From: an uncultured Spirochaetaceae bacterium
GTDB taxonomy: Bacteria > Spirochaetota > Spirochaetia > Sphaerochaetales > Sphaerochaetaceae
NCBI GenBank assembly: GCA_944389145.1
Contig: CALXLH010000032.1
Location: 1 to 64,000, forward strand
DNA: 64,000 nucleotides
Reading direction: 5' to 3'
Notes under the pieces: model-generated
What the model saw: the letters and a program-made list of their open reading frames with translations, nothing else
Told to the model about the DNA's origin: nothing
Databases searched by the model: none
In this document: one piece after another, positions 24,869-64,000 of the stretch
How the letters are laid out: every line of letters begins with the position of its first letter
How positions within the stretch are numbered: position 1 is the stretch's first letter
Made by a program: the position numbers and the translations under genes

Positions 24869-25402
24869 ATGAATGAAACAATCACACATCCATTTCCCCC
24901 AGTTGCAGACGAGTCTTCAAGAATCCTTATCCTCGGATCATTCCCTTCCGTAAGGTCACGGGAGGAAGGCTTCTATTATGGACATCCGAGAAACAGGTTC
25001 TGGCCGCTGATGGAAGAGATATTCTCCACAAGCCTCCATACGATAGATGACAGAAGGTCATTCCTCCTGGAAAGGCATATCGCGCTGTGGGACACGATCG
25101 CATCCTGCCGCATCACAGGTTCCGCGGATAGCGCGATAACCGATGTCATCCCGAACGATATAGACAGCCTCATAAGAAGCAGCAGGATCGGCATGATAGT
25201 CACGAACGGACGCAAGGCAGACGAGATCTTCAGCAGATACATCCATCTCTCCGACGACGTGATGATGCCATCGCTCTGCCTGCCATCCACATCGCCGGCA
25301 AATGCAGCATGGTCATTCGACAGGCTTCTGGAAAAATGGAGAATAATAAACTTGCTATTGGATATGAAAGGCAGAAATAATGATCAGCCTATCTCAGACT
25401 GA
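24869..25402 (+). CDS. DNA glycosylase, uracil/hypoxanthine type (UDG superfamily)
   Basis: 177 residues. RILILGSFPSVRSREEGFYYGHPRNRFWPLMEEIF near the N-terminus is the GxFPS-type loop plus GHPxNxFW of the Mug/TDG/family-6 (DNA-deoxyinosine glycosylase) branch; IALWDTIASC and LPSTSPANA are further family motifs. It would remove deaminated bases from DNA. The start is an ATG preceded by TAGAAT 7 nt upstream and no ribosome binding site. The 3' end overlaps the GntR gene by 19 nt, tail-to-tail. Confidence 0.85.
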   Translation: MNETITHPFPPVADESSRILILGSFPSVRSREEGFYYGHPRNRFWPLMEEIFSTSLHTIDDRRSFLLERHIALWDTIASCRITGSADSAITDVIPNDIDSLIRSSRIGMIVTNGRKADEIFSRYIHLSDDVMMPSLCLPSTSPANAAWSFDRLLEKWRIINLLLDMKGRNNDQPISD

Positions 25403-25407
25403 TCATT
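25379..25407. terminator. Inverted repeat spanning two convergent stop codons
   Basis: AATGATCAG and CTGATCATT form a perfect 9-bp stem around an 11-nt loop, covering the stops of the glycosylase and GntR genes. It may serve as a bidirectional terminator, although there is no clear T tract on either side. Confidence 0.4.
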
Positions 25408-26094
25408 GGATATGACTGAATCCTTTAGCACCCAGCCTCGCTCCAGACTGCTTCGAACGCATTCTACAAAAACATCCTCACCCTTCTGTTCCTTCAGAGC
25501 AATCGCGATTTCCTTGTGATTATCGACAAATTCATCAATGGAAAAACCTCTATGGATCTTCTCATAGTATTGCAATAGCATCATCCGGGATTTTACTACA
25601 TTCCACATATCGATAAGCACCTTATTGCAAGCGCCACTCACGATAGTCTCATGAAAAAGCACATCATGGCATATGACTTCATATATATCATTCGAATGCT
25701 CATATGCCGTGACTGTATGCTCGATTATATCCATTAAGACAGATGGGTTATCATCGACAAGATTCTTGTATGCATGTGATGATGCATAGACCTCTACGAG
25801 GATACGCGCATCTGATACGTTACGGATCATCGTCTTATCAACTCTGACGACTGAATTGCCTGTATATGGAACGATATCAACCAATCCCTCTTCTGAGAGT
25901 CGCTGGATAGCCTGCCGAACCGGCGTTATGCTAACGCCAAGCTGCTTAGAAACCTCCCGTTCAACAAGCCTTTCACCTAAGCCTAGACGCCCTGTGATAA
26001 TTGCTTTCCTAAGCAGATTCTCAACATTTTCTGCAGTACTTTGCTTAATCGGCAACATATCGTACATCTTGTCACCATTAAGAAATGACTTCAT
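25384..26094 (-). CDS. GntR-family regulator (FadR/FCD type)
   Basis: 236 residues. Winged HTH at 15-75 (ENLLRKAIITGRLGLGERL, REVSKQLGVSITPVRQAIQRL, GLVDIVPYTGNSVV), then the all-helical FCD ligand-binding domain with metal-binding positions typical of the family (DARILVEVYA, HDVLFHETIV, HKEIAIAL). FCD regulators usually sense small carboxylic acids. It is downstream of, and in line with, the racemase and transporter genes, so it probably controls this locus. Start at 26094 behind GGAGG; an upstream in-frame extension was rejected. Confidence 0.9.
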   Translation of the reverse strand: MKSFLNGDKMYDMLPIKQSTAENVENLLRKAIITGRLGLGERLVEREVSKQLGVSITPVRQAIQRLSEEGLVDIVPYTGNSVVRVDKTMIRNVSDARILVEVYASSHAYKNLVDDNPSVLMDIIEHTVTAYEHSNDIYEVICHDVLFHETIVSGACNKVLIDMWNVVKSRMMLLQYYEKIHRGFSIDEFVDNHKEIAIALKEQKGEDVFVECVRSSLERGWVLKDSVISNDQSEIG

Positions 26095-26241
26095 TGAACT
26101 TCCTCCAGACTCTGACTCTATCGGATAAGAACAATAAAAGGAAGGGATAGAATACAAGTTGTCTCGGCATGCCTATAATCACTCACAACCTTTCTCCATG
26201 CTCTGCCTGCCCACGATCAGCAGGCAGGAAGATATATCCAA

Positions 26242-27543
26242 TCAGCTCCTTAATGCTCCGTCCTCATCAAAGATCATCTCATGAAGCTCTCCGATCTTCT
26301 CAAATAAGGGATTACCGTCTATCTCTTCAAGCATGGCTTCTGATATTTCTATTTCCCCTATATCAAGCGTATTCTTTATATGTATCAATCTAATCTGATT
26401 ACGATCGACTCCAACGCACATGCGTATGCATGCGGCTATCGCTTCCCTATCATTCCGCAACACCATTGGAATCTTGCATCCTGTGCAGACTAGAGATGTA
26501 AGTGCATTGACATAAGCATATTCAGGACATGATTTTCCAATAAGTCGCCTTGTTGTGGTATCTGCCATGCCTATGCCTATGCAATTTCCGTGGCTCTCAT
26601 CTGTAAGATCCAAGACAGCAAGCTTCTGTACTTTTATTCCGCCAGAAGCGAATTCCGTGGTATACCGGCCAGTAACATTGCAATCCATTCCACTGCCAGA
26701 GATATTCTTTCCCATCTGATCAACTACAAGCACATCGCACGAATCAAACAGCAAACGACCCATCTTCTGCTTTGAGATCGATAGAAGCTGGGGCTCCTGT
26801 TCCGGAATCTCTTCTGGAGTAAGCACCTTTATGTCATAGGTCTTGTCGTACGCATTCTCTATCGTGGCGATGCCCAGTAATACCGGAGAATACTTCAGTA
26901 TCGCCCTTCCGAACAACTCAATATTGCGAGACATCGTACCAAACCCTTCGTTATGGCATATCTGCGCACCATACTGCTTTCCAAGCCCTATAGTCATCAT
27001 CTTCATGAGACCGCTCTCGTATGGTCCATGGAAACAAGGATGCATCTTTATTCTATGAAAAACGATAATATGATCGGCTTCTGCTGCATTCCTATCAATA
27101 TAAACAGGATGGCCTTCTGAGGTCTCCCCGATATGAACGGTAGTCATATCAGAGAGAATAGGGACTCCTATGCTTTCCTCCGTAACCCCTAGGCTGGCAA
27201 GCAGAGCAAGCTGTCCTTCAGCAGTTGCCCCACCATGGCTTCCCATCGCAGGAACAATAAATGGCAATGCCCCCCTATCCTTTAAGGCATTCACTATAAA
27301 ACGGAGTATTGCCACCGAGTTAGCAACCTGCCTGCTACCTGCCGTTATAGCAACACGATGACCAGGCTTTATATTATTAAGCTGGGCAATCACCTCTGCT
27401 CGGGAGAATTCAAGGGAAAGCTTACCATCGATATCCTCAATGCAAGCAGAATCAAACTTCTGCCTAACCTTCTGCATTCTCGGGAATCTATAACCAGAAA
27501 GAAGATTGCTTATAAAATCCTCTGTTTTCTTATCTACAAGCAT
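26242..27543 (-). CDS. LarA-like (DUF2088) racemase/epimerase homologue
   Basis: 433 residues. The N-terminal part has ITAGSRQVANSVAILR, then VPAMGSHGGATAEGQLALL, VYIDRNAAEADHIIVFHRI, and KMMTIGLGKQYGAQICHNEG: the layout of the lactate racemase LarA N-terminal family (Pfam 09861), with histidines and lysine in the places used to hold the nickel-pincer cofactor. Known relatives racemise lactate, malate or phenyllactate or epimerise gluconate. No larB, larC or larE is in the window. Start at 27543 (AGGTGG upstream). With TctCBA and a lactonase next door, a hydroxy-acid or sugar-acid substrate is likely, but unproven. Confidence 0.72.
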   Translation of the reverse strand: MLVDKKTEDFISNLLSGYRFPRMQKVRQKFDSACIEDIDGKLSLEFSRAEVIAQLNNIKPGHRVAITAGSRQVANSVAILRFIVNALKDRGALPFIVPAMGSHGGATAEGQLALLASLGVTEESIGVPILSDMTTVHIGETSEGHPVYIDRNAAEADHIIVFHRIKMHPCFHGPYESGLMKMMTIGLGKQYGAQICHNEGFGTMSRNIELFGRAILKYSPVLLGIATIENAYDKTYDIKVLTPEEIPEQEPQLLSISKQKMGRLLFDSCDVLVVDQMGKNISGSGMDCNVTGRYTTEFASGGIKVQKLAVLDLTDESHGNCIGIGMADTTTRRLIGKSCPEYAYVNALTSLVCTGCKIPMVLRNDREAIAACIRMCVGVDRNQIRLIHIKNTLDIGEIEISEAMLEEIDGNPLFEKIGELHEMIFDEDGALRS

Positions 27544-27560
27544 GTAATCCACCTTTAAAT

Positions 27561-28973
27561 TTAATCTTTCCTGAGTGCACCGAGAATTCCAAGCTTCTCA
27601 TCGCTAAGGTATCCGTACCTATTTACCCACATGCCATCCTTGCTGTTATCCCAGCAGATATTGAAACGCCGCCGCACATCATCAAGTGGACCATAGCCAT
27701 GAGGAAATGAATAAACAGGAATAGAACCTCTTACTTCCCGCTCAGCTTCCCTTATCTTTCGGACAAGGGCCCCAGACCCAGCGATATGTGCCTCGTCCGG
27801 CTCTGGATACCTGTAATCCAGCAGAGATGCCTTCGTCGAATCCTCAAAGTCAAAGAGCAATGATACGAATCTGACAACATCGCTCTCCTTCAATCCTGGA
27901 TTCATCTTCATCAGCTGTTCAGCCCAGCATGTAACGATCATTGACCAGTGCATAGTGAAGAACTTGAGGTGAACAGCATCAACATACTTAGGCATAAATG
28001 AGAAATCAACACCCGTGAGCATGCTCATCATTGGTGGATACACCGTAGATATGAGCTTCAGTCCAGGATTCGCTGAATCAGCAGCCCTCCGAAGCTCCTC
28101 AAGATAAGTCTCTACCAGCTTCGATCTGAATGCCAGGATCTCAGCAATCAGAGGATCCCTGCGGAAGCACTCTCCGATGAACTCACACATATCCTGAGGC
28201 TCTCTGATAGCAGAAAGCACGGTAGGATCGACAGAAGCGATGCCTGAATAGATTTCCTGCGCCTTTCTACGCATATCCTCAAACGGGAATCCATATTCTA
28301 TAGCCTTCTTCCTAGCGGCCTCCCCGAAATCAAGGAACACATCATCCAACGTATAGAAGGACTGCTCGGATCTATCAAGTACAAATCCATCGATCATTGG
28401 ATATGCCGCATAGAGATCCCGAAGCTCCGAACAAGCATATGCACGTACATCATCGCTAGCAATCGATGCAAAGCTATATATACGGTTGCTAGCAACCGTC
28501 CCATCAGGCATCAAAGGCGTAGAATCACTGATTTCTGGAACAGAAGAGCTATTTGGATCGACCTCTGGAACATGACAGACCTGTACCTGCAGATATGCTC
28601 CCATCCCTCTTCTCTTCACCTCGGATAGGAAGTCTCCGATGATATGCCCCTTCTCCTTAGTAAGGTTACCGCCTGAATTAGGGGTATAACGCTGTCCCTT
28701 ATAGAAATGCGGATCGAACTGATAGCTTGGCTCGACATGGATGAACGCCTCATGCTTTCCCCATACGGGCCGATCAATCAGCCGGCCTCCCCCGCAATTG
28801 CCATCATCAGGGGGTTCCCGTCTTCCACTTGCTGCATCAGCAGCAGGCTCAGCAACCTGGGCAATGGCAGCTATATCGGTTACCCCTGCCTCTTCAAGAT
28901 TATCAAGTACCTTGCTTATCCCTTCATATATCAGATGCGGCGACCATACTATGACACCAAGTCTCTTGCTCAT
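27561..28973 (-). CDS. Unknown protein, probable TIM-barrel enzyme
   Basis: 470 residues. I do not recognise the family. MSKRLGVIVWSPHLIYEGI at the start, then regular strand-helix alternation (MGAYLQVQVCHVPEVDP, YPMIDGFVLDRSEQSFYTLDD, LKLISTVYPPMMSM, YVDAVHLKFFTMHW) as in glycosidase-like (beta/alpha)8 barrels. DGFVLDRSEQ and the carboxylates in the C-terminal region could be catalytic. A Gly/Pro/Asp-rich loop lies at about 45-70. No signal peptide, so cytoplasmic. Located between tctA and the LarA homologue, 17 nt from the latter, so part of the same pathway. GGGAG lies 8 nt before the ATG. Confidence 0.7.
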   Translation of the reverse strand: MSKRLGVIVWSPHLIYEGISKVLDNLEEAGVTDIAAIAQVAEPAADAASGRREPPDDGNCGGGRLIDRPVWGKHEAFIHVEPSYQFDPHFYKGQRYTPNSGGNLTKEKGHIIGDFLSEVKRRGMGAYLQVQVCHVPEVDPNSSSVPEISDSTPLMPDGTVASNRIYSFASIASDDVRAYACSELRDLYAAYPMIDGFVLDRSEQSFYTLDDVFLDFGEAARKKAIEYGFPFEDMRRKAQEIYSGIASVDPTVLSAIREPQDMCEFIGECFRRDPLIAEILAFRSKLVETYLEELRRAADSANPGLKLISTVYPPMMSMLTGVDFSFMPKYVDAVHLKFFTMHWSMIVTCWAEQLMKMNPGLKESDVVRFVSLLFDFEDSTKASLLDYRYPEPDEAHIAGSGALVRKIREAEREVRGSIPVYSFPHGYGPLDDVRRRFNICWDNSKDGMWVNRYGYLSDEKLGILGALRKD

Positions 28974-29015
28974 AATAAAAACTCCCTTTTTCTAAACGAA
29001 TCAATAAATATATCC

Positions 29016-30488
29016 TTATCCCTGCCTCTCCTGCTTGATTGTCTTTACGAACGTCGAGATCAGAAGCAGCGCAGAAACCAGCAGGAAAACGATGCTGATC
29101 GGACGGGTGAAGAATATTCCGAAGGATCCATTCGATATGACCAGGGACTGCCTCAGATTCCTTTCGGCGAGATTGCCAAGTACAATAGAGATAACGAGAG
29201 GAGTCAATGGATAATCAAGGCGATTGAGTACATAGCAGAGAATACCGAAAACGAGCATCACATATACATCGAATATCGAATTATTCGTTGCGAATGCACC
29301 TACTACACAGAGTATCATAAGCGTCCCTAGCAGGAGCTTCTGAGGAATCTTCGTAACATGCACAAAGAACCTTATGAACGCAGTTCCCTCAATATACATT
29401 ATGATGTTTATCACGAACATGCTGCCCATGATTATGTAAACCCACGGAGAGCTTCCATCAAAGAGATTCGGGCCTGGTATTATCCCCTGCATCATCAATG
29501 CACCGATAAGGATCGCAGTAACAGCATCGCCAGGAATACCTAGCGTAAGGAGAGGAATCATAGTTGCACCGGTAACTGCATTATTAGCGGTTTCAGAGGC
29601 AACTACGCCATCCATGTTTCCTGTACCAAATGTATCTGGTTCCTTCGAAGACCTCTTCGCCTCATTGTATGCAAGGAAGGAGGAAATCGCAGCTCCTGTG
29701 CCGGGAATTGCTCCGATTATCGTGCCGATGATGCTTGACTTAAGCATCGTCTTCCAATGCCTCATCAGATCCCTTGCCTTGATCGTCCTCTTCTTAAACG
29801 GAATAGTATCGCCCGTATCATCATCGATATGAGCCATCTTCTCGAAAAGCTCAGAAAGAGCAAATGCTCCCAAAAGAGCAGGCACAAGCTGGATTCCAGT
29901 CATAAGATTCACGTTACCGAACGTAAACCGCTGTACGCCTTCAATCGGGTCTATGCCGATAAGCGTGACGAACAAGCCAACGGAAGCCATCATCAATCCC
30001 TTAAAGGCATTCTTGCTTGTAGCGACAGCAATGACCACAAGGCCAAAGAAAGAAAGCGCGAAATACTCAGGAGGTCCGAATTTCAATGCAGCGCTTGCGA
30101 TAAGAGGGGCGAAGAACAGTAGCATGAAGCAACTGAACAATCCTCCAACCGTCGATGCGAACAGGGCAGAATAAAGCGCATCGCCACCTTTCCCTTGCTT
30201 TGCCAGAGGATAACCATCAAAGGCAGTGGCCGCAGATGCCGGAGTTCCCGGCGTATTAATAAGGATAGCCGTTATTGATCCCCCATATATGCCACCGCAG
30301 TAAACTGCAAGCAAAAGCACCATTCCTGTTATTGAAGGAAGACCAAATGTGAGAGGCAGAATGATTGCGACACCCATCACCGCGGTCAACCCAGGCAGAG
30401 CTCCTATTATCGTACCTATAGCCATGCCCATAACCATCATTATGAGATTTATCGGATCAATTAAAGTCGTGATTATTTCAAGAAACAT
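29016..30488 (-). CDS. tctA: Tripartite tricarboxylate transporter large membrane subunit TctA
   Basis: 490 residues, about 12 helices. IGTIIGALPGLTAVMGVAIILPLTF and IIGTIIGAIPGTGAAISSFLAYNEAKR are the duplicated GALPG/GAIPG signatures of TctA, and GGSITAILINTPGTPASAATAFDGYP is the substrate-site segment. It forms the translocation path for organic acids driven by an ion gradient. Normal length. Sits 12 nt from tctB. Confidence 0.94.
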   Translation of the reverse strand: MFLEIITTLIDPINLIMMVMGMAIGTIIGALPGLTAVMGVAIILPLTFGLPSITGMVLLLAVYCGGIYGGSITAILINTPGTPASAATAFDGYPLAKQGKGGDALYSALFASTVGGLFSCFMLLFFAPLIASAALKFGPPEYFALSFFGLVVIAVATSKNAFKGLMMASVGLFVTLIGIDPIEGVQRFTFGNVNLMTGIQLVPALLGAFALSELFEKMAHIDDDTGDTIPFKKRTIKARDLMRHWKTMLKSSIIGTIIGAIPGTGAAISSFLAYNEAKRSSKEPDTFGTGNMDGVVASETANNAVTGATMIPLLTLGIPGDAVTAILIGALMMQGIIPGPNLFDGSSPWVYIIMGSMFVINIIMYIEGTAFIRFFVHVTKIPQKLLLGTLMILCVVGAFATNNSIFDVYVMLVFGILCYVLNRLDYPLTPLVISIVLGNLAERNLRQSLVISNGSFGIFFTRPISIVFLLVSALLLISTFVKTIKQERQG

Positions 30489-30500
30489 AAAGACTCCCTA

Positions 30501-30983
30501 TCATATCTGAACGAAAAGCAGATATTTGAATACGAAATAGACAGCTACGGCGAATGCGGCATCGATGACGTAGTACCACCACACCTTTTCCCTCAGAACC
30601 AGCAGGAGAAGCACGCAGCATATTACGCTTGTCGGAATGAATCCTATGTATGGATAAAGCAATCCATAAAGCAGGAAATCTGCCATGTATGCGATAACCC
30701 TGATATTCTCCCCTTTCTTGAAGATCACCATATTAGGAAGTTCCTTGTTATTTTTCTTTGCATCACGTAGGTTCATAGCATTCAATACAATATTGATCAC
30801 GGATGAAACCCACATGATTCCGACTATGACCTTTGGCATGAAATGGCTGCTTAGCAATTCAGTATTCGTCATGCCTGAGTGCAGATTCGAATATGGTATG
30901 CAATACGGCGTAACGATAAGTATTGCGGCACCAAATAAAATCAATATTACTGAAACAAGGATGTTAACCTGATACTTATTCAT
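30501..30983 (-). CDS. tctB: Tripartite tricarboxylate transporter small membrane subunit TctB
   Basis: 160 residues with four predicted helices (VNILVSVILILFGAAILIV, PKVIVGIMWVSSVINIVL, MADFLLYGLLYPYIGFIPTSVI, YYVIDAAFAVAVYFVFKYLLF). Sequence conservation in TctB is low, and the call rests on topology and on the tctC-tctB-tctA order. The start at 30983 has GGAG 6 nt upstream; an ATG at 31019 is also in frame. Confidence 0.85.
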   Translation of the reverse strand: MNKYQVNILVSVILILFGAAILIVTPYCIPYSNLHSGMTNTELLSSHFMPKVIVGIMWVSSVINIVLNAMNLRDAKKNNKELPNMVIFKKGENIRVIAYMADFLLYGLLYPYIGFIPTSVICCVLLLLVLREKVWWYYVIDAAFAVAVYFVFKYLLFVQI

Positions 30984-31071
30984 AATCCACTCCGTTATCT
31001 GAAGAAAAACGTGATCCATAAGTGAATCGATAACACAGCCTTACAGACCACGCTTTACTACTCGAAAAACC

Positions 31072-32061
31072 TTAGTTCCCTGCGTTCATTTGCGCGATGA
31101 TGGAGCCAAACGCCTCGTTGCACTCTGCAATCTTCGCATTGATCTCCTCTTCGGTAAGGGTATAGGTGTCCAGACCATTAAGATCCTTTATGAATTTTGA
31201 ATACTCGGGTCCGACTACTGCTTCGTTTATCTTCTCCTTCAGATAATCAACGATCTCATCTGGCGTATCCTTAGGTACCTGAACCCATTTCCATGCAACG
31301 GCGTATCCTGTATTTTCATATCCAAGTTCCTTAAGGCAAGGAACGTCAGGGAGAGCGCCACACCTTTCATCACCTGTCACCGCGATGGCTCTGAGAGTTC
31401 CATTGGCAACCCTGCCGGTTACTTCAAGCAGATCTGCGATCGTTATATCTATATGATTTCCAAGCAATGCGGTAATGGCCTCTGCTGCGCCCTGGAACGG
31501 AACTATCGTCTTGTTTGCGTCCGCACCTATACGATTCATGATATCCGTCCAAGCGATATTCCCTACAGAACCTGGATTTGCCGTACCAATATTGACATTC
31601 TGATCTGTTGCCATCAACGCGAGGAAGTCATCCCAATCCTGAATAGGTGATTCAGGAGTCACGCATATCACCAGCTGCTCATCAGGCGAAAGTACGGCGA
31701 TGTTGCGGAATGAATCCATCGTATACGGTACCTCCTGGGTATGAGGAACGATATACGTCGCAGCAGGCATACCGATATTGAGCGTATACCCATCCGGCTT
31801 GGAACTAGCAAGCTCTGCAGCAGCAACAGTCCCACTGGCTCCTGTCCTATTTACGATATTGATTGCAACTCCTAAATCAAGAACCTCTGCAAGCGAACGC
31901 GCCATGATATCAGTACCGCCACCAGCAGCAGATCCAACAAGGATAGTTATAGGACGCCTAGGATAACCAGCGGCACCACCTCCTTCAGAAGCTCCTCCCG
32001 CCATAAGAACAGAAATCCCAATAATCAATACTGATAATATTGATAATACTCTTCGGATCAT
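31072..32061 (-). CDS. tctC: Tripartite tricarboxylate transporter solute-binding protein TctC
   Basis: 329 residues. Signal peptide IRRVLSILSVLIIGISVLMAGG; the lipobox-like position carries Gly instead of Cys, so the protein is probably soluble in the periplasm. YPRRPITILVGSAAGGGTDIMAR is the classic BugT start of the family, and GNHIDITIADLLEVTGRVANGTLRAIAVTG is the second-lobe signature. It captures a carboxylate substrate for TctBA. AGGAGG lies before the ATG at 32061. First gene of the leftward catabolic operon. Confidence 0.93.
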   Translation of the reverse strand: MIRRVLSILSVLIIGISVLMAGGASEGGGAAGYPRRPITILVGSAAGGGTDIMARSLAEVLDLGVAINIVNRTGASGTVAAAELASSKPDGYTLNIGMPAATYIVPHTQEVPYTMDSFRNIAVLSPDEQLVICVTPESPIQDWDDFLALMATDQNVNIGTANPGSVGNIAWTDIMNRIGADANKTIVPFQGAAEAITALLGNHIDITIADLLEVTGRVANGTLRAIAVTGDERCGALPDVPCLKELGYENTGYAVAWKWVQVPKDTPDEIVDYLKEKINEAVVGPEYSKFIKDLNGLDTYTLTEEEINAKIAECNEAFGSIIAQMNAGN

Positions 32062-32082
32062 GTATTTCCTCCTTTTTCCTAC

Positions 32083-32136
32083 ATGATACATGATGCATCA
32101 TACATCATATGATATAATTGATATCGAAGCTGTCAA
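32083..32136. promoter_or_regulatory. Divergent promoters with palindromic operators (tctC / lactonase)
   Basis: Leftward promoter for tctC: TTGACA (32131-32136), 16 nt, TATCAT (32109-32114) on the minus strand. Rightward promoter for the lactonase: extended -10 TGATATAAT (32110-32118). Two palindromes overlie them: ATCATATGAT at 32104-32113 and ATGATGCATCAT at 32090-32101, the latter within a 26-bp imperfect palindrome (32083-32108). They are good candidates for binding by the GntR regulator at 25384. Confidence 0.65.
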
Positions 32137-32158
32137 CAAAAAAGGAGATAATTCGCAC

Positions 32159-33178
32159 ATGAGCAAAAGTTATTACGCAATCGGAACATACAATACTGGA
32201 ATAACACCCTCGAATCATTTATCCCGAAACGGAATATGCATGATAGAGTTAGATGAACTAACAGGAAGTCTAAGGCTAATCAAAAAAAGCAGATTCCTAT
32301 GCAATCCGTCTTACCTATGCAAGCGAAATAATGAGAAAAAGCTATACGCAGTATCGGAGATGATGGATAGCGATGGCTTGATCACATGCTTCATAATCAC
32401 TGATGACATGGATCTAGTGAAAGTAAAAGAATTCGAAGGACCAGGGAGAGCGGCTTGTCATGTGGCCGTCCATGATAACCTGCCACTACTCTATTCTGCA
32501 TCATATCATGATGGGAAATTCGAAATTATCAATATGGATGAAGGCTGCAGGACTATAATACAATGCACCGGCAGTGGTCCGAATACCACCAGGCAAGAAC
32601 ATTCTCATGCACATCAGGTCATGCCAATTGGAGATTCCGTAATCCTAGTATCAGACCTAGGGAGTGATACGATATGGAAATATGATGAGCTTACTCACTC
32701 CCTAAGCTTATTTTGGAAGGCTCCATCGGGTTCGGGCCCCCGTCATATGGTAATGGATCCATCTGATGGAACAATATATCTTGCCTGTGAATTAACACCT
32801 TATATTTTCGCAATATCAAACGAGGGAAAAACATTACAGAAAATCGAATACCCTTTTGATGCAGATGCAGCAGCCATTAGAATGCATCCTTCAGGTAAGA
32901 CGCTTGCAGTATCCTACAGGAAGAATAACCATATCCTTATTCTCGATATAATGAGAGAAGAAGATGGCTCTAGGCTGAGAACCGCAGCAGAGATATCAAG
33001 TAAAGGAGAAGTTCCTAGGGACTTTGCATTCTCCTCATCCGGAGACTGGATTCTGATGCTGAATCAGGACTCTGATTCAATAATATCGCAAAGAATAAAT
33101 CATGACTCAGGCCTTCCTGAGGGGCATGAACAGGGATTCCTGCATATTACGACGCCGGTATCAATCATTGAATTATAA
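32159..33178 (+). CDS. Lactonase-type seven-bladed beta-propeller protein (YbhE-like)
   Basis: 339 residues. Repeated blade strands such as KKLYAVSEMMDSDGLITCF, LPLLYSASYHDGKFEIINM, SVILVSDLGSDTIWKYD and HPSGKTLAVSYRKNNHILIL, plus the AHQVMPIGD and GPRHMVMDPSDGTIYLACEL segments, are the hallmarks of the 6-phosphogluconolactonase/3-carboxymuconate cyclase (Pgl/YbhE) family. It would hydrolyse an aldonolactone to the acid. Cytoplasmic, no signal. AAAGGAG is 11 nt before the chosen start at 32159. Divergent from the tct operon and visibly A+T rich like it. Confidence 0.85.
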   Translation: MSKSYYAIGTYNTGITPSNHLSRNGICMIELDELTGSLRLIKKSRFLCNPSYLCKRNNEKKLYAVSEMMDSDGLITCFIITDDMDLVKVKEFEGPGRAACHVAVHDNLPLLYSASYHDGKFEIINMDEGCRTIIQCTGSGPNTTRQEHSHAHQVMPIGDSVILVSDLGSDTIWKYDELTHSLSLFWKAPSGSGPRHMVMDPSDGTIYLACELTPYIFAISNEGKTLQKIEYPFDADAAAIRMHPSGKTLAVSYRKNNHILILDIMREEDGSRLRTAAEISSKGEVPRDFAFSSSGDWILMLNQDSDSIISQRINHDSGLPEGHEQGFLHITTPVSIIEL

Positions 33179-33239
33179 ATCATATTAATACATCTGAATC
33201 CAGAATAAATATTGTAATATGATTTAAAAATCATAAAGA

Positions 33240-33268
33240 TTGCACGATATCATAACGATATATATAAT
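33240..33268 (+). promoter_or_regulatory. Promoter, leaderless arrangement
   Basis: TTGCAC, 17 nt, TATAAT, ending 6 nt before the ATG at 33275. Transcription should start at or within 1-2 nt of the start codon. Confidence 0.7.
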
Positions 33269-33274
33269 AGTCGC

Positions 33275-34129
33275 ATGAATCGCTTGTTCCAGTTCGCATT
33301 CTCAAAGCTCAAGGGAGTGACTGTATTCGCCCTTGTCGGACGTTCCGGTACCGGCAAGAGCTATCATTCGAAGCTGGTGGCGGCGAAGTATCATATTGAT
33401 CTCGTGATCGATGACGGCCTGCTGATAAAGGGCAACAGGATACTCGCAGGCCATTCAGCAAAGCAGGACTCGGATTTCCTCGCAGCGGTACGCACCGCGG
33501 TATTCGATGACGAAGAGCATCGCAACGAGGTCATGAGCGCCCTTCTGAAGGAACACTATCGCAAGATACTCATCATCGGAACATCCGAGAAGATGGTGAA
33601 CAAGATAGCAAAGAGGCTTGAGCTCCCACAGCCGGAGAGGATCATCCATATAGAGGATATCGCATCTCAGGATGAGATAGAGACTGCGATGAGGATAAGG
33701 TACACGGAAGGAAAGCATGTAATCCCGGTACCATCTATAGAGGTAACGCGCTCAGCCCCCCAGATCGTATATGACTCGATGAAGGTCTTCATGGGGAGGA
33801 AGGGGCCGATGAAGAAGCAGACCTACGAAAAGACCATCGTGAGGCCTGAGTTCTCCCGCCCAGACAAGGAAGAGCTGTCAGAGGCCGTGCTGACGCAGAT
33901 GGTCAAGCACGCCATAGGCGAATATGACCCGGTGATGAAGGTGAAGAAGGTACGGGGAACGAAGAATCAGGACTCTTCCTATTCCGTGGCAGTGATGCTC
34001 CAGCTTCCTGTACGCCACTACATGAGCACAACGATATCCGACCTGCAGGAATACATCACGGAATGCATCGAGAAATACGGAGGGGTCATGATCCATTCAG
34101 TCTCCGTGGAGATCGAGGAATGGGGCTAG
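33275..34129 (+). CDS. P-loop ATPase with Asp23-like C-terminal domain
   Basis: 284 residues. VTVFALVGRSGTGKSYHSK near residue 15 is a Walker A motif, and KILIIGTSEKMVNKIAKRL resembles the following strand-helix of a small kinase fold. The last 100 residues (EELSEAVLTQMVKHAIGEYDPVMKVKKVR, SYSVAVMLQLPV, LQEYITECIEKYGG, VHSVSVEIE-like end) look like the Asp23/DUF322 domain of envelope-stress proteins. Function unknown. No Shine-Dalgarno; the promoter -10 box is 6 nt upstream of the start. Overlaps the end of pcnB by 4 nt, tail-to-tail. Confidence 0.75.
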   Translation: MNRLFQFAFSKLKGVTVFALVGRSGTGKSYHSKLVAAKYHIDLVIDDGLLIKGNRILAGHSAKQDSDFLAAVRTAVFDDEEHRNEVMSALLKEHYRKILIIGTSEKMVNKIAKRLELPQPERIIHIEDIASQDEIETAMRIRYTEGKHVIPVPSIEVTRSAPQIVYDSMKVFMGRKGPMKKQTYEKTIVRPEFSRPDKEELSEAVLTQMVKHAIGEYDPVMKVKKVRGTKNQDSSYSVAVMLQLPVRHYMSTTISDLQEYITECIEKYGGVMIHSVSVEIEEWG

Positions 34130-38617: not shown

Positions 38618-39277
38618 TCACCTGATGAAATAGTCGGGATAGGCGGAGATGATATCAGGGATATTCTCGAAGTACCTTTCCATATGCCGCTTCGCTATCG
38701 ATGCAGCCTTATCGGCATCGCGGTCCTCGATCGCGTGGATCAGGCATTCGTGATCGGATATGATCCTATCCGTCGTACGGACGCGCAGGCTCAATATGGT
38801 GGTCCGGTCGAAAAGCGGGGCATAGCGCTCGGAAAGCTCATACCAGAATCCAAGCCCCACAGCCTTGTAGAAGACGGAATGGAACGCCTTGTCGTACTTC
38901 AGGATGCGCCTCTCATCCTTCTTCTCGATATACATGCGCCATAGAAGGAGGTTCTCATATAGCGCGTTGATATCATCGGACGTGAATACGCTGCATGCTA
39001 TCCTGGCAAGCTCACTCTCGAGCACGCTCCTCAGGTGCCTTACCTCCTCCACGAGATGGATGTCGATCAGGGAGACATACGTGCCCCGCTTAGGCCTGAT
39101 CTCCAGGAGCTTGCGGCTCTGCATCTCCAGCTCAGCCTCCCTGAACGGGGTGCGGCTGACGCCAAGCGCGGAGAGAAGCTCATCCTCCTCGATCTTCTCT
39201 CCAGGCTGCAGGCTGCAGTCGATGATATTCTCGATCATCACGCGCAGGACATAATCCTTCGCGCTCTCCTTATCCAT
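38618..39277 (-). CDS. GntR-family regulator (FadR/FCD type)
   Basis: 219 residues from MDKESAKDYVLRVMIENI. Winged HTH (GEKIEEDELLSALGVSRTPFREAELEMQSRKLLEIRPKRGTYV), then the helical FCD domain (HLRSVLESELARIACSVF, YDKAFHSVFYKAVG, SDHECLIHAIEDRDADKAASIAKRHM) with the usual His/Asp metal ligands. It lies immediately upstream of the GlpO-type operon in the same direction and likely represses it. The frame is open to an ATG at 39367; I chose 39277 because GGAG lies just upstream and the domain begins there, but the start is uncertain. Confidence 0.87.
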   Translation of the reverse strand: MDKESAKDYVLRVMIENIIDCSLQPGEKIEEDELLSALGVSRTPFREAELEMQSRKLLEIRPKRGTYVSLIDIHLVEEVRHLRSVLESELARIACSVFTSDDINALYENLLLWRMYIEKKDERRILKYDKAFHSVFYKAVGLGFWYELSERYAPLFDRTTILSLRVRTTDRIISDHECLIHAIEDRDADKAASIAKRHMERYFENIPDIISAYPDYFIR

Positions 39278-39368
39278 CCTCTCCAAGACAGTGAACACAT
39301 CCTGATGATATCCCATAAGCATGATGCTTGAAAGGCTGAACGTCATCCAGGAGAGATAATCGATCATA

Positions 39369-60996: not shown

Positions 60997-61010
60997 TGTG
61001 CATTTGCACA
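60997..61010. promoter_or_regulatory. LacI-type operator at the fructan promoter
   Basis: TGTGCATTTGCACA has matching 6-nt arms and lies 10-25 nt downstream of the predicted transcription start, a normal position for a repressor site. Confidence 0.6.
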
Positions 61011-61027
61011 CAAGATTAACAACTAGA

Positions 61028-61055
61028 ATTATATGTCAAATGCTCCAGTTAGCAA
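61028..61055 (-). promoter_or_regulatory. Promoter of the fructan operon
   Basis: TTGCTA (61050-61055), 16 nt, TATAAT (61028-61033) on the minus strand. The predicted start is near 61021, just before the palindrome at 60997-61010. Confidence 0.6.
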
Positions 61056-61173
61056 CAAAAATCGTGCATCAAAATATCAATTCACGGAAATGCTCCAATT
61101 AAATCGTAGTTATCTAACTAGAATACAAATAATTACAAATAGAGGTATTATTTATGGCTATCTCAGATGCATG

Positions 61174-61207
61174 TATGCATATGCAAGCATTATGCACAAA
61201 ATGCACA
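61174..61207. promoter_or_regulatory. Cluster of TGCA-centred sites before the LacI gene
   Basis: TATGCATATGCA, then TGCACA at 61193-61198 and again at 61202-61207. These share the TGCACA half-site of the operator at 60997, so they may allow autoregulation or looping. The rest of 61056-61262 is A+T rich with no gene. Confidence 0.45.
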
Positions 61208-61262
61208 CATTTTCCTTGCGAGATGTAAAACCATGAGATATCCTTATTACATCGAGGTAACG

Positions 61263-62306
61263 ATGAACTGCTCTATAAATGACATCGCAAGGCATCTGAA
61301 TCTGTCGCGCAACACGATATCGAAGGCGCTTAATGGCAAGCCCGGGGTTTCCCCCGAGACACGTCGCCTGATATTGGAGACGGCAAGCGAGATGAGATAC
61401 CGGAATGTCCTTGATTACCCTGGCAATGATGAGAGGCAGTCAAAGGGAACGATACTATTCCTGACGAAGGCGACGCGCCATACGAGTTTCTGGCTATGCG
61501 TCATGGAAGGCATCAAGAGGCAGCTTGAGAATACAGGCTATAAGCTCGCCCTCTCGATAATGTCAGAGGAAGAGCTGAGGAACAAGGAGCTGCCAAACCT
61601 GTCCCTGACGGAGGATGTGAAGGGGATAATCATAGTTGAGATATGCAACCTCGAGATGTGCAGGAAGATACTCGGGCTGGGGCTTCCGACAGTCACTGTT
61701 GATATGCCGCGCAATCCAGAGGAGATCCTTGATTCGATCGATGTGGTCACAATGGAGAACAAGAGGCATATCTCTCACCTTATAGATATGCTTGTGAAGC
61801 AAGGCAAGAGGAGATTCTCATTCGCTGGCGACCTTTTCTCTGACAATGTAAGCCAAGGATTCATGGACAGATATGAGGCATTTACCGAAGCGCTTGCGCG
61901 CAACGGCCTTTCCGAGGACAAGGATTCATCCTTCACGACGGACGGGCAGGACCAATTCCTCAACCTTCCATATCTCATCGGCCGTATCAAGAAGATGAGG
62001 AAGCTTCCTGAGGTATACTTCTGCGGCAATGACTGGACGGCGCTACAGCTCATGCACGCCCTTACCTACTCAGGTTACTCAGTACCCGACGACGTATACA
62101 TAGTAGGGTTCGACAACACCACCGAGTCCTCCGAGTCCATCCCTGCCCTTACCACGATAAACACCCCGAAGGAACAGCTGGGAAAGACCACGATAGACTG
62201 CATCGTAGGCAAGATAGAAAGCCCCGAACGCGCCCCTATGTTCATACAGGTTGCTACGAATCTCATAATCCGTGATTCAACGGGCGATCTGAAGGAAATG
62301 ATGTAA
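61263..62306 (+). CDS. LacI-family transcriptional regulator
   Basis: 347 residues. SINDIARHLNLSRNTISKALNGKPGVSPETRRLI is the LacI helix-turn-helix with hinge (VLDYPGN), followed by a periplasmic-binding-protein fold effector domain (GTILFLTKATRHTSFWLCVMEGI, VKGIIIVEICN, EVYFCGNDWTALQLMHAL, VYIVGFDNTTES, LTTINTPKEQLGKTTIDCI). Divergent from the fructan operon, which it presumably represses until a fructoside or its phosphate is present. Start at 61263 behind GAGG; a longer frame upstream was rejected. Confidence 0.92.
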   Translation: MNCSINDIARHLNLSRNTISKALNGKPGVSPETRRLILETASEMRYRNVLDYPGNDERQSKGTILFLTKATRHTSFWLCVMEGIKRQLENTGYKLALSIMSEEELRNKELPNLSLTEDVKGIIIVEICNLEMCRKILGLGLPTVTVDMPRNPEEILDSIDVVTMENKRHISHLIDMLVKQGKRRFSFAGDLFSDNVSQGFMDRYEAFTEALARNGLSEDKDSSFTTDGQDQFLNLPYLIGRIKKMRKLPEVYFCGNDWTALQLMHALTYSGYSVPDDVYIVGFDNTTESSESIPALTTINTPKEQLGKTTIDCIVGKIESPERAPMFIQVATNLIIRDSTGDLKEMM

Positions 62307-62313
62307 GACGGAA

Positions 62314-62338
62314 GATGGCGGAGCCATGCCCCGCCATC
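62314..62338. terminator. Hairpin between LacI and the surface protein gene
   Basis: GATGGCGG, a 9-nt loop, CCGCCATC. It sits 8 nt after the LacI stop and 16 nt from the convergent gene's stop; it lacks a strong T tract on either side but may terminate both. Confidence 0.5.
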
Positions 62339-62353
62339 GTACTCTTAAAAATA

Positions 62354-64000
62354 TTACCTTGATAGTGTCAGTTTTATTGGACCAAGATCAGCATTTTCTA
62401 TTATATGGATCGTTGCCCTATCTAGATACCGCTTGTCACTGAATGAGATTTCATATGAAGGCTCTTGGGATCGAGGGAGAGAATATTGTGAGTAACCAAT
62501 CTTACCAACAGGACCTCCAACAATATGCATCCAGACTAAATCAGATAGCCCTTCAGCACTTACCGTAAGACCTGTCCTTGCCTCTATCGATCCCTTGAAG
62601 ACTAGCGATATAAAATCATAGCCTGGATTGAGAATATCCTTATAATTGTTCAAGTTGGTTTCATATGGATCTGATAATCCATTATTGATATCGACCTCAA
62701 TCATATGATTCTTATCTTCATCGTTAATCGCACGAATCACCATAGAACCTTTATCCGGTTCTGTTTCTTTTTCATCAAACATATCAAAGTTAAAGATAAT
62801 ATCCTCATCGATCTGACCAAGATAATAGACAATCTTTCTCTTGTTATCTGATTCATCAACATAACACCTTAGCGGAATCAAGCAATGCTCTTTCCAATAA
62901 CCGTTCTTTGCACTACGCGGGTTCATGATGTTTGCGGTCAGAAGATAATCATTAGGAGAGAGATTACTTCCAACGGTTAGCTCAAGAACCAAATCCTCAG
63001 ACTTTTCCTTTATATCCTCTGGCTTTATCCGATATACTGCAGGAGACTTCTCGATTTCTGCTGTCTTTTCATATCCAAGATCGATAGGATTATCTATCTT
63101 CACTTCGAACTTATAGTCTTCGGATGAATCCTCTCCGATCTTTATCTGCTGAAAAACAGTAACAGTGCCTTTCCCTTCAAGATCCAAGACACCCCAGCCC
63201 CTATCCATACCATCTTCCGAAACGATGCCATAATCCGTGCTGACATTACGCCCTTGCCCTGAACGTAATTCATAAACAACTATATCAGATAGAGTTAATT
63301 CATCATTGTTCAGTTTGACTTCGTAGACCTTCTCATATACCATCTGCCCTTCATCATTTTTGAATAAACATTCATCAACTCCACGTTGGATGACCATATC
63401 ATCGCCAAGATTGATTGGATCAGGTTCCAGCTTCGCAAGTTCGAAAGAACTCACACCATCTCCTAGCTCATCACCTCCGAATTGGAATGATGTGGAATCG
63501 GCATATATGATATATGTTCCACCATTGGTAGAAATCAATCTTGAATCAGCAGTCGCCCTAACCGCAGTACCGGCAGATTTATGGTACATTCCTTTTGCAT
63601 TAGGAGTAGCCCCCTTAGGAAGCACAGTATAGACCTCGCCCTTTTCCAATCCTGACAAAGTGACAAGGGTTTCTGCATTTATTGAATATTCCTTAGGTGT
63701 CTCTGCAAGACTATCCTCAACCGTTATCGTCTCGACCTTTGAATAGCTAGGCGCGCTCCCACCGCCACCACCACCTGCGGTAGCAGCTTCAACGGTTACC
63801 GTGCATGTGGCCTTAACCGTAGTGTTCGATACGCTTGATACTGTTATCGTGTATTCACCTGCCGTGGCCGTACTGCTGACTGTCACGACTCCAGCCTCCA
63901 CGGTTATGGATTCACTGTCGCTTGCCCATAGGAGGGATTTATCGGTGGCGTCCTCGGGGCTGACGGTAGCATTAAGCGTTGCTGTCTCCCCTGCCTTAAG
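62354..64000 (-). CDS. Surface protein with bacterial Ig-like domain (partial)
   Basis: The frame is open to the window's right edge: 548 C-terminal residues are visible, and the start is beyond 64000. The visible N-terminal end (GETATLNATVSPEDATDKSL, SITVEAGVVTVSSTATAGEY, TVSSVSNTTVKATCTVTVEA) is a BacIg/Big_2-type domain. A glycine linker (GGGGGGSAP) follows, then about 450 residues of beta-rich sequence with no family I recognise. No C-terminal anchor motif is visible. Probably exported and surface-located. More A+T rich than its neighbours, which hints at a different origin. Confidence 0.75.
   Translation of the reverse strand, partial: LKAGETATLNATVSPEDATDKSLLWASDSESITVEAGVVTVSSTATAGEYTITVSSVSNTTVKATCTVTVEAATAGGGGGGSAPSYSKVETITVEDSLAETPKEYSINAETLVTLSGLEKGEVYTVLPKGATPNAKGMYHKSAGTAVRATADSRLISTNGGTYIIYADSTSFQFGGDELGDGVSSFELAKLEPDPINLGDDMVIQRGVDECLFKNDEGQMVYEKVYEVKLNNDELTLSDIVVYELRSGQGRNVSTDYGIVSEDGMDRGWGVLDLEGKGTVTVFQQIKIGEDSSEDYKFEVKIDNPIDLGYEKTAEIEKSPAVYRIKPEDIKEKSEDLVLELTVGSNLSPNDYLLTANIMNPRSAKNGYWKEHCLIPLRCYVDESDNKRKIVYYLGQIDEDIIFNFDMFDEKETEPDKGSMVIRAINDEDKNHMIEVDINNGLSDPYETNLNNYKDILNPGYDFISLVFKGSIEARTGLTVSAEGLSDLVWMHIVGGPVGKIGYSQYSLPRSQEPSYEISFSDKRYLDRATIHIIENADLGPIKLTLSR

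Follow-up and report, generated by a model that had tools for sequence, protein, structure and literature searches.

A candidate sugar-acid catabolic operon combining a tripartite tricarboxylate transporter, a group-22 nickel-pincer isomerase and a predicted barrel enzyme in a spirochaete genome

The stretch of DNA analysed here (the window, 64,000 nucleotides from an uncultured Spirochaetaceae bacterium) carries at 25384-33178 a block of seven genes, all of them intact open reading frames, assigned where possible to families by Pfam and NCBIfam profiles (Table 1). Six lie on the minus strand, their listed ends 8-84 bp apart, in the order tctC, tctB, tctA, the gene for a 470-aa protein, a LarA-superfamily gene and a gntR/FCD gene, 5' to 3' of the transcript, while the seventh, encoding a lactonase-family protein, is divergent from them. 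A sequence-only reading of this DNA had named five parts, a tripartite tricarboxylate (TTT) transporter, a lactonase propeller, a LarA-type homologue, the 470-residue protein and an FCD regulator, and all are found as intact open reading frames, with family matches for all but the 470-residue protein; the A+T-richness it claimed is also borne out, with a G+C content of 44.8% in 25403-33274 versus 54.7% in the remaining window. The block encodes no dehydratase, kinase or aldolase and no sulfatase or lyase. Nor is it a uronate/altronate (UxaCBA) locus, the isomerase, reductase and dehydratase genes being located elsewhere in the genome.

Table 1. Genes and candidate control sites of the block, with positions in the window
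Feature	Position	Strand	Evidence
GntR-family transcription factor with FCD ligand-binding domain, probable local regulator	25384..26157	-	PF00392 E=2.1e-15, PF07729 E=2.4e-9
LarA-superfamily nickel-pincer-nucleotide isomerase, group 22	26242..27552	-	Lar_N PF09861 E=2.7e-10; NF052515 523.7 bits
470-aa protein, unnamed family, predicted glycoside-hydrolase-like (beta/alpha)8 barrel	27561..28973	-	no Pfam/NCBIfam family
TctA, large membrane subunit of TTT transporter	29016..30488	-	PF01970 E=2.2e-155
TctB, small membrane subunit of TTT transporter	30501..31019	-	PF07331 E=4.3e-15
TctC, substrate-binding protein; start (probable) corrected from 32091	31072..32061	-	PF03401 E=6.9e-44; RBS
Imperfect palindrome ATGATACATGATG/CATCATACATCAT, candidate operator	32083..32108	.	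inverted repeat, 85% complementary, no spacer
Promoter-like site TTGACA-16-TATCAT for tctC..gntR	32109..32136	-	11/12 consensus bases
Seven-bladed beta-propeller lactonase-family protein; start (probable) corrected from 32090	32160..33178	+	PF10282 E=7.2e-58; RBS

The genes for TctA, TctB and TctC are adjacent and all score above their Pfam cutoffs, as members of the TTT transporter family. The regulator combines an N-terminal winged helix-turn-helix with an FCD domain, both above their cutoffs, and belongs to the GntR/FCD family. The lactonase scores 196.9 bits against PF10282 (cutoff 21.7 bits) and is a member of the seven-bladed propeller family, without an apparent signal peptide; its PDB relatives are 3hfq, 4qrj and 6igb, a gluconolactonase, and it falls below both NCBIfam cutoffs for Pgl (6-phosphogluconolactonase), with 94.4 against 500 and 70.8 against 370 bits. 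The two divergent genes probably start at the corrected positions, because AGGAGG lies upstream of 32061 and AAAGGAG upstream of 32160, leaving 98 bp between them as the divergent promoter region. The best of 15 promoter-like sites in this region, TTGACA-16-TATCAT, is weak evidence, since the number of such sites is not above that in shuffled sequences; the 26-bp palindrome that lies immediately downstream of its hexamers is a candidate repressor operator.

The site of the block can be compared with its equivalents in the genus. In the genome G209 the genes for PcnB, a 284-aa protein, a UDG-family protein, RnfC and RnfD are collinear with the flanks in the window, and these flanks are adjacent, with at most about 70 bp where the window has 7.9 kb, and with no Ttt, LarA or barrel genes between them. 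The 7.9-kb block is an insertion, probably recent and horizontally acquired, since it is A+T-rich and missing from the equivalent site in this sister genome; its base composition makes gain a simpler explanation than repeated loss. Within the genus (48 genomes, counting that of the window) the closest group-22 isomerases reach no more than 50% identity and occupy other loci, no orthologous isomerase was found in the other members searched, and those members that the class searches sampled all lack the 470-aa protein. Four loci of the genus (L177, L178, L179, L181) were compared with the flank at window position 33275: three of these relatives (G233, G210 and G212) carry different genes next to the 284-aa gene and G209 has nothing, which makes this a variable chromosomal site. 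The block might be a chance mosaic, of unrelated genes collected at an insertion hot spot and sharing no pathway, and both the uniqueness of the full set and the other inserts that relatives bear at the equivalent site would fit such an origin. However, six tightly spaced genes share one strand, their divergent start is marked by a promoter-like site and a palindrome, and subsets of these genes recur across distant phyla; all this speaks for a functional unit, and we consider a mosaic quite improbable.

Targeted searches of the contigs of the host genome located further genes relevant to the block. One example is a contiguous larE-larB-larC operon for nickel-pincer (NPN) cofactor synthesis on contig C12 (L195:8779-11679), and the host is therefore able to make the NPN cofactor. 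Another is the tandem of uxaC, a uxaA-type dehydratase gene and the tagaturonate reductase gene uxaB on contig C17 (L196:6797-11190), a locus of hexuronate catabolism. The genome also encodes two more LarA homologs, on contig C14 at about 98.3 and 128.5 kb (L015 and L016; Lar_N E=2e-42 and 6e-61), apparently belonging to groups other than 22.

The isomerase of the block scores 523.7 bits against NF052515 ('NPN-dependent isomerase, group 22'; cutoff 400 bits, E=2.8e-157) and is a member of that group. Its residues R74, H106, H171, K184 and H200 are invariant among 40 aligned sequences and, matched by spacing and conservation rather than by superposition, correspond to R75, H108, H174, K184 and H200 of lactate racemase, where they serve as the NPN-binding Arg, Lys and His and the two catalytic His (PMC11770544). 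The isomerase sequence matched no chain in the PDB, and a profile of its family reached LarA at E=0.55 only, so that a fold search was required. Foldseek placed LarA-family structures at all of ranks 1-19 (E 3e-11 to 5e-9, TM about 0.4-0.56), predicting the two-domain fold of LarA. The isomerase is thus like the LarA superfamily in its score above the NF052515 cutoff, in its NPN-binding residues, in both catalytic histidines and in the predicted fold, but the substrate-pocket residues of group 22 are unlike those of the lactate, gluconate and 2-hydroxyglutarate groups: the two positions after H171 are T/V/P/S and then mostly A/S/D, whereas the equivalent pair is F,F in lactate racemases, E,V in gluconate epimerases and Y,F in 2-hydroxyglutarate racemases (PMC11770544). 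Neither PMC7583248 nor PMC11770544 reports an activity or reaction for group 22, which occurs in Spirochaetia, Bacillota, roseobacters and haloarchaea.

Group 22 is matched in 40 of the 198 Spirochaetia genomes sampled, above the cutoff in 32 of them, and TctA is encoded within 5 kb of the isomerase at 13 of the 44 loci of the class, the window included. With the window left out, TctA is near at 12 of 43 loci, where about 0.9-2.9 would be expected (p 4e-11 to 2e-5 by the binomial distribution); the expectation assumes 7 to 20 TctA genes per genome, recorded counts of 8 being lower bounds (at least 8), and the p-values are rough because loci of one genome are not independent. Further neighbours in Spirochaetia are TRAP transporters, 2-hydroxyacid and alcohol dehydrogenases, an HpcH aldolase, PdxA, a four-carbon-acid-sugar kinase and MR/MLE dehydratases; UxaA/GarD and uxaC occur at one locus each of the 44, the 2-hydroxyacid and alcohol dehydrogenases being commoner. 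In the window's own genus, one group-22 copy (L184) lies downstream of a UxaA/GarD-type dehydratase gene. Plasmids present more examples: a Paenibacillus plasmid, on which the group-22 gene adjoins uxaC, an SDR gene and larEBC; a Sporomusa termitida plasmid (NZ_CP036260), with the order MR/MLE-tctCBA-larAH22-UxaA(small, large)-GntR, the split UxaA genes of which best match galactarate dehydratase, though far under its cutoff; roseobacter plasmids, encoding altronate/arabinonate-type dehydratases and LarC with group 22; and a Roseicitreum plasmid, with IlvD/Edd. In haloarchaea, PdxA and four-carbon-acid-sugar kinase genes are near group 22 on a Haladaptatus plasmid, sugar ABC transporter genes adjoin it on a Halocatena plasmid, and DUF4147 is next to it on a Haloarcula plasmid, in a locus that also encodes LUD proteins. 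Judged by these gene neighbourhoods, the shared theme is sugar acids. Group-22 genes adjoin UxaA/GarD-type dehydratase genes at L184, L188, L189, L190 and L191 (Spirochaetia, Sporomusa, roseobacters). Such arrangements hint that group-22 enzymes make the substrate of the adjoining dehydratase.

Some of the same neighbourhoods could be read differently, with the substrate a small non-sugar 2-hydroxy acid, glycerate-, malate- or 2-hydroxyglutarate-like, imported by the Ttt system and racemised for a host dehydrogenase, and with the barrel protein and the lactonase in a side role or acting on a glycosylated or esterified precursor. A 2-hydroxyacid dehydrogenase, Fe-ADH or HpcH aldolase is encoded near many of the Spirochaetia group-22 loci, the DUF4147 and LUD proteins of Haloarcula would suit such an acid, and known LarA homologs include racemases of malate, 2-hydroxyglutarate and glycerate (PMC7583248, PMC11770544). 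However, the residues that follow the second catalytic His in group 22 are not the F,F or Y,F of the racemases for such acids (PMC11770544), and a simple hydroxy acid would call for neither a glycosidase-like barrel enzyme nor a lactonase, so that we regard this alternative as unlikely, if deserving of attention.

The 470-aa protein matches no Pfam or NCBIfam family, and neither its sequence nor its family profile found anything credible in the PDB. It had been called TIM-barrel-like by the sequence-only reading, and the AlphaFold model (mean pLDDT 93.8, pTM 0.93) together with the Foldseek matches, to Cwp19 (E=5e-9), PgaB, GH156 and GH42, at about 10% identity and a TM of at most 0.66, agrees: it is confidently modelled as a glycoside-hydrolase-like (beta/alpha)8 TIM barrel. 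The protein is presumably cytoplasmic, as it has no apparent signal peptide. Ten residues are invariant in 63 family sequences (E17, R64, R68, D200, E203, Y207, K337, Y427, W449 and Y453), and D200 and E203 come after the presumed beta-4 strand (196-200). Glycoside hydrolase barrels have acidic residues at the end of beta-4. The family is thus like Cwp19, the C-terminal domain of PgaB, GH156 and GH42 in its predicted fold and in the acidic D..E pair that ends the presumed fourth strand, but unlike them it has no invariant acidic residue past the presumed seventh strand, nor does it belong to a common sequence family with them; the window protein has no GH or GHL match in Pfam, and among 63 relatives one matches GHL6 weakly and one GHL10. 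An anionic ligand would fit the basic residues among the invariant ones.

A scan of 84,980 species genomes for this family, from which 80 loci were kept, places it in at least eight phyla, Chloroflexota, Acidobacteriota, Planctomycetota, Latescibacterota, Gemmatimonadota, Pseudomonadota and Spirochaetota among them; the plasmids searched gave no match. Within 4 kb of the barrel gene, in 82 loci, the neighbours are sulfatase (29), TctC (15), MR/MLE (9), SGL lactonase (7) and GntR (6). Sulfatases of the SGSH_C type adjoin the family at L060, L068, L079, L088 and about 25 more loci. Their frequency suggests that the family acts in other phyla on substrates that are sulfated or otherwise anionic. 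Seven loci of Burkholderiales have tctC and the barrel gene transcribed away from each other and an SGL lactonase gene after the barrel gene; a GntR gene separates the barrel and lactonase genes in five of the seven (FCD confirmed in two), and in an actinobacterial locus (L050) the barrel gene adjoins one for a PF10282 lactonase. On the barrel tree the TTT link is limited to Pseudomonadota (16 of 17 rows) and the window and needs three changes, and it thus lies in two distant parts. A recoded TAG codon was considered in the barrel relatives of other spirochaetes and rejected, the TAG in the one checked (L198, genome G261) being the normal terminal stop.

The sulfatases beside the barrel family also invite a reading in which a sulfonated or sulfated sugar acid (e.g., sulfolactate-like) is taken up by the Ttt system as the substrate, racemised and cleaved by a UxaA-family (SuyAB-like) lyase. 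Split small and large UxaA-family genes are the SuyAB arrangement, and genes so split stand beside group 22 in Sporomusa. Yet their best match is the galactarate dehydratase named above, far under its cutoff as it is, and the block in the window is without a sulfatase or lyase; this reading appears to us improbable.

As to the transporter, the nearest solved relative of the window TctC is 25HK (phmmer E=5.3e-36), followed by BugD (E=9.3e-34). The structure 25HK is that of the alginate-specific TTT receptor of Vibrio sp. C42, reported to be specific for unsaturated alginate oligosaccharides (PMC13390454). In the printed alignment the two receptors have the pocket residues G24, T25, D26 and E165 in common, but F19, P104, G183 and T225 of 25HK are not found in the window TctC, and, unlike the Vibrio system, the block includes no alginate lyase. 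A sugar acid larger than citrate is thus a plausible ligand, and no more than plausible because the nearest relative shares its pocket in part.

Two of the gene arrangements above come close to the block. The Sporomusa termitida cluster, known from annotation, no study of it having been found, likewise combines a TTT transporter, a group-22 isomerase and a GntR regulator, but has two dehydratase-type enzymes in place of the barrel protein and the lactonase. The Comamonadaceae loci with tctC, barrel, FCD regulator and SGL lactonase genes (L087, L091, L093-L095) have four functional parts of the window, and L096 and L097 have tctC, the barrel and the SGL lactonase, no FCD gene being detected; their barrel proteins are 30-32% identical to that of the window, their lactonase is of another family (PF08450), and neither adjacent TctA/TctB nor a LarA homolog was detected. 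The sequence-only reading had looked to co-occurrence of the five families elsewhere, and this is found in part. The transporter recurs with group 22 at 12 other Spirochaetia loci and in Sporomusa, and receptor, barrel and lactonase, usually with an FCD regulator, recur in Burkholderiales, with the lactonase the non-homologous SGL; the complete set occurs only here, and no group-22 isomerase is encoded beside a barrel gene outside the window in the data searched. The remark that no described pathway has exactly this set still stands, as the literature searched does not describe the complete set and the genomes searched have it nowhere else, and the open-licence literature yielded no paper treating LarA homologs jointly with TTT transporters or altronate dehydratase.

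Overall, we read the block as a whole as a catabolic operon for a carboxylated carbohydrate or sugar acid, with a probability of roughly 0.55. By analogy with their families, TctCBA would import a carboxylated sugar or glycoside, from which the barrel enzyme and the propeller lactonase would release or open an aldonic (sugar) acid in the cytoplasm; the group-22 isomerase would then invert the C2 stereocentre of this acid by hidden-redox hydride transfer, a chemistry established for the family, and the epimer may feed the sugar-acid enzymes of the host, such as UxaA of the uxaC-uxaA-uxaB operon. The FCD regulator would control the divergent promoter in response to a ligand. This reading is favoured because the neighbours of group 22 are sugar-acid genes, because group 22 and the barrel family both recur near TTT genes, because the nearest solved relative of TctC binds uronic-acid oligosaccharides, and because the host has both larE-larB-larC and the hexuronate operon. 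The acid import and epimerisation proposed earlier are in this way backed in their sugar- or hydroxy-acid direction by the neighbours of the isomerase and the barrel elsewhere, while the lactone step derives from a family name. Several points count against the sugar-acid reading. The isomerase and the barrel protein are together only here, and the block has no dehydratase, kinase or aldolase; the sulfatase, commonest neighbour of the barrel family (29/82), is missing from it; and UxaA/GarD and uxaC are rare near group 22 in Spirochaetia (one locus each of 44). In addition, TTT receptors bind many acids (citrate, malate and terephthalate, for example), and the 25HK pocket is only partly common to the window TctC.

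Every component of the block belongs to a known superfamily or fold, and two belong to families without a known reaction. For these two we offer, tentatively and with more doubt than confidence, a testable function: that the 470-aa proteins form a new family of glycosidase-like enzymes that act on carboxylated or sulfated sugars in the cytoplasm, and that group 22 are aldonate C2-epimerases feeding UxaA/GarD-type dehydratases. If true, the two families together would make up a nickel-dependent branch of sugar-acid catabolism not described before, and the compact locus in the window, which puts both beside one transporter, provides a receptor open to ligand screening.

Two further features of the window lie outside the block. 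A second GntR-family regulator, similar to that of the block, is encoded about 5.5 kb past it (38621-39367, minus strand), and 61001-64000 is also A+T-rich (43-46% G+C) and may be another acquired segment.
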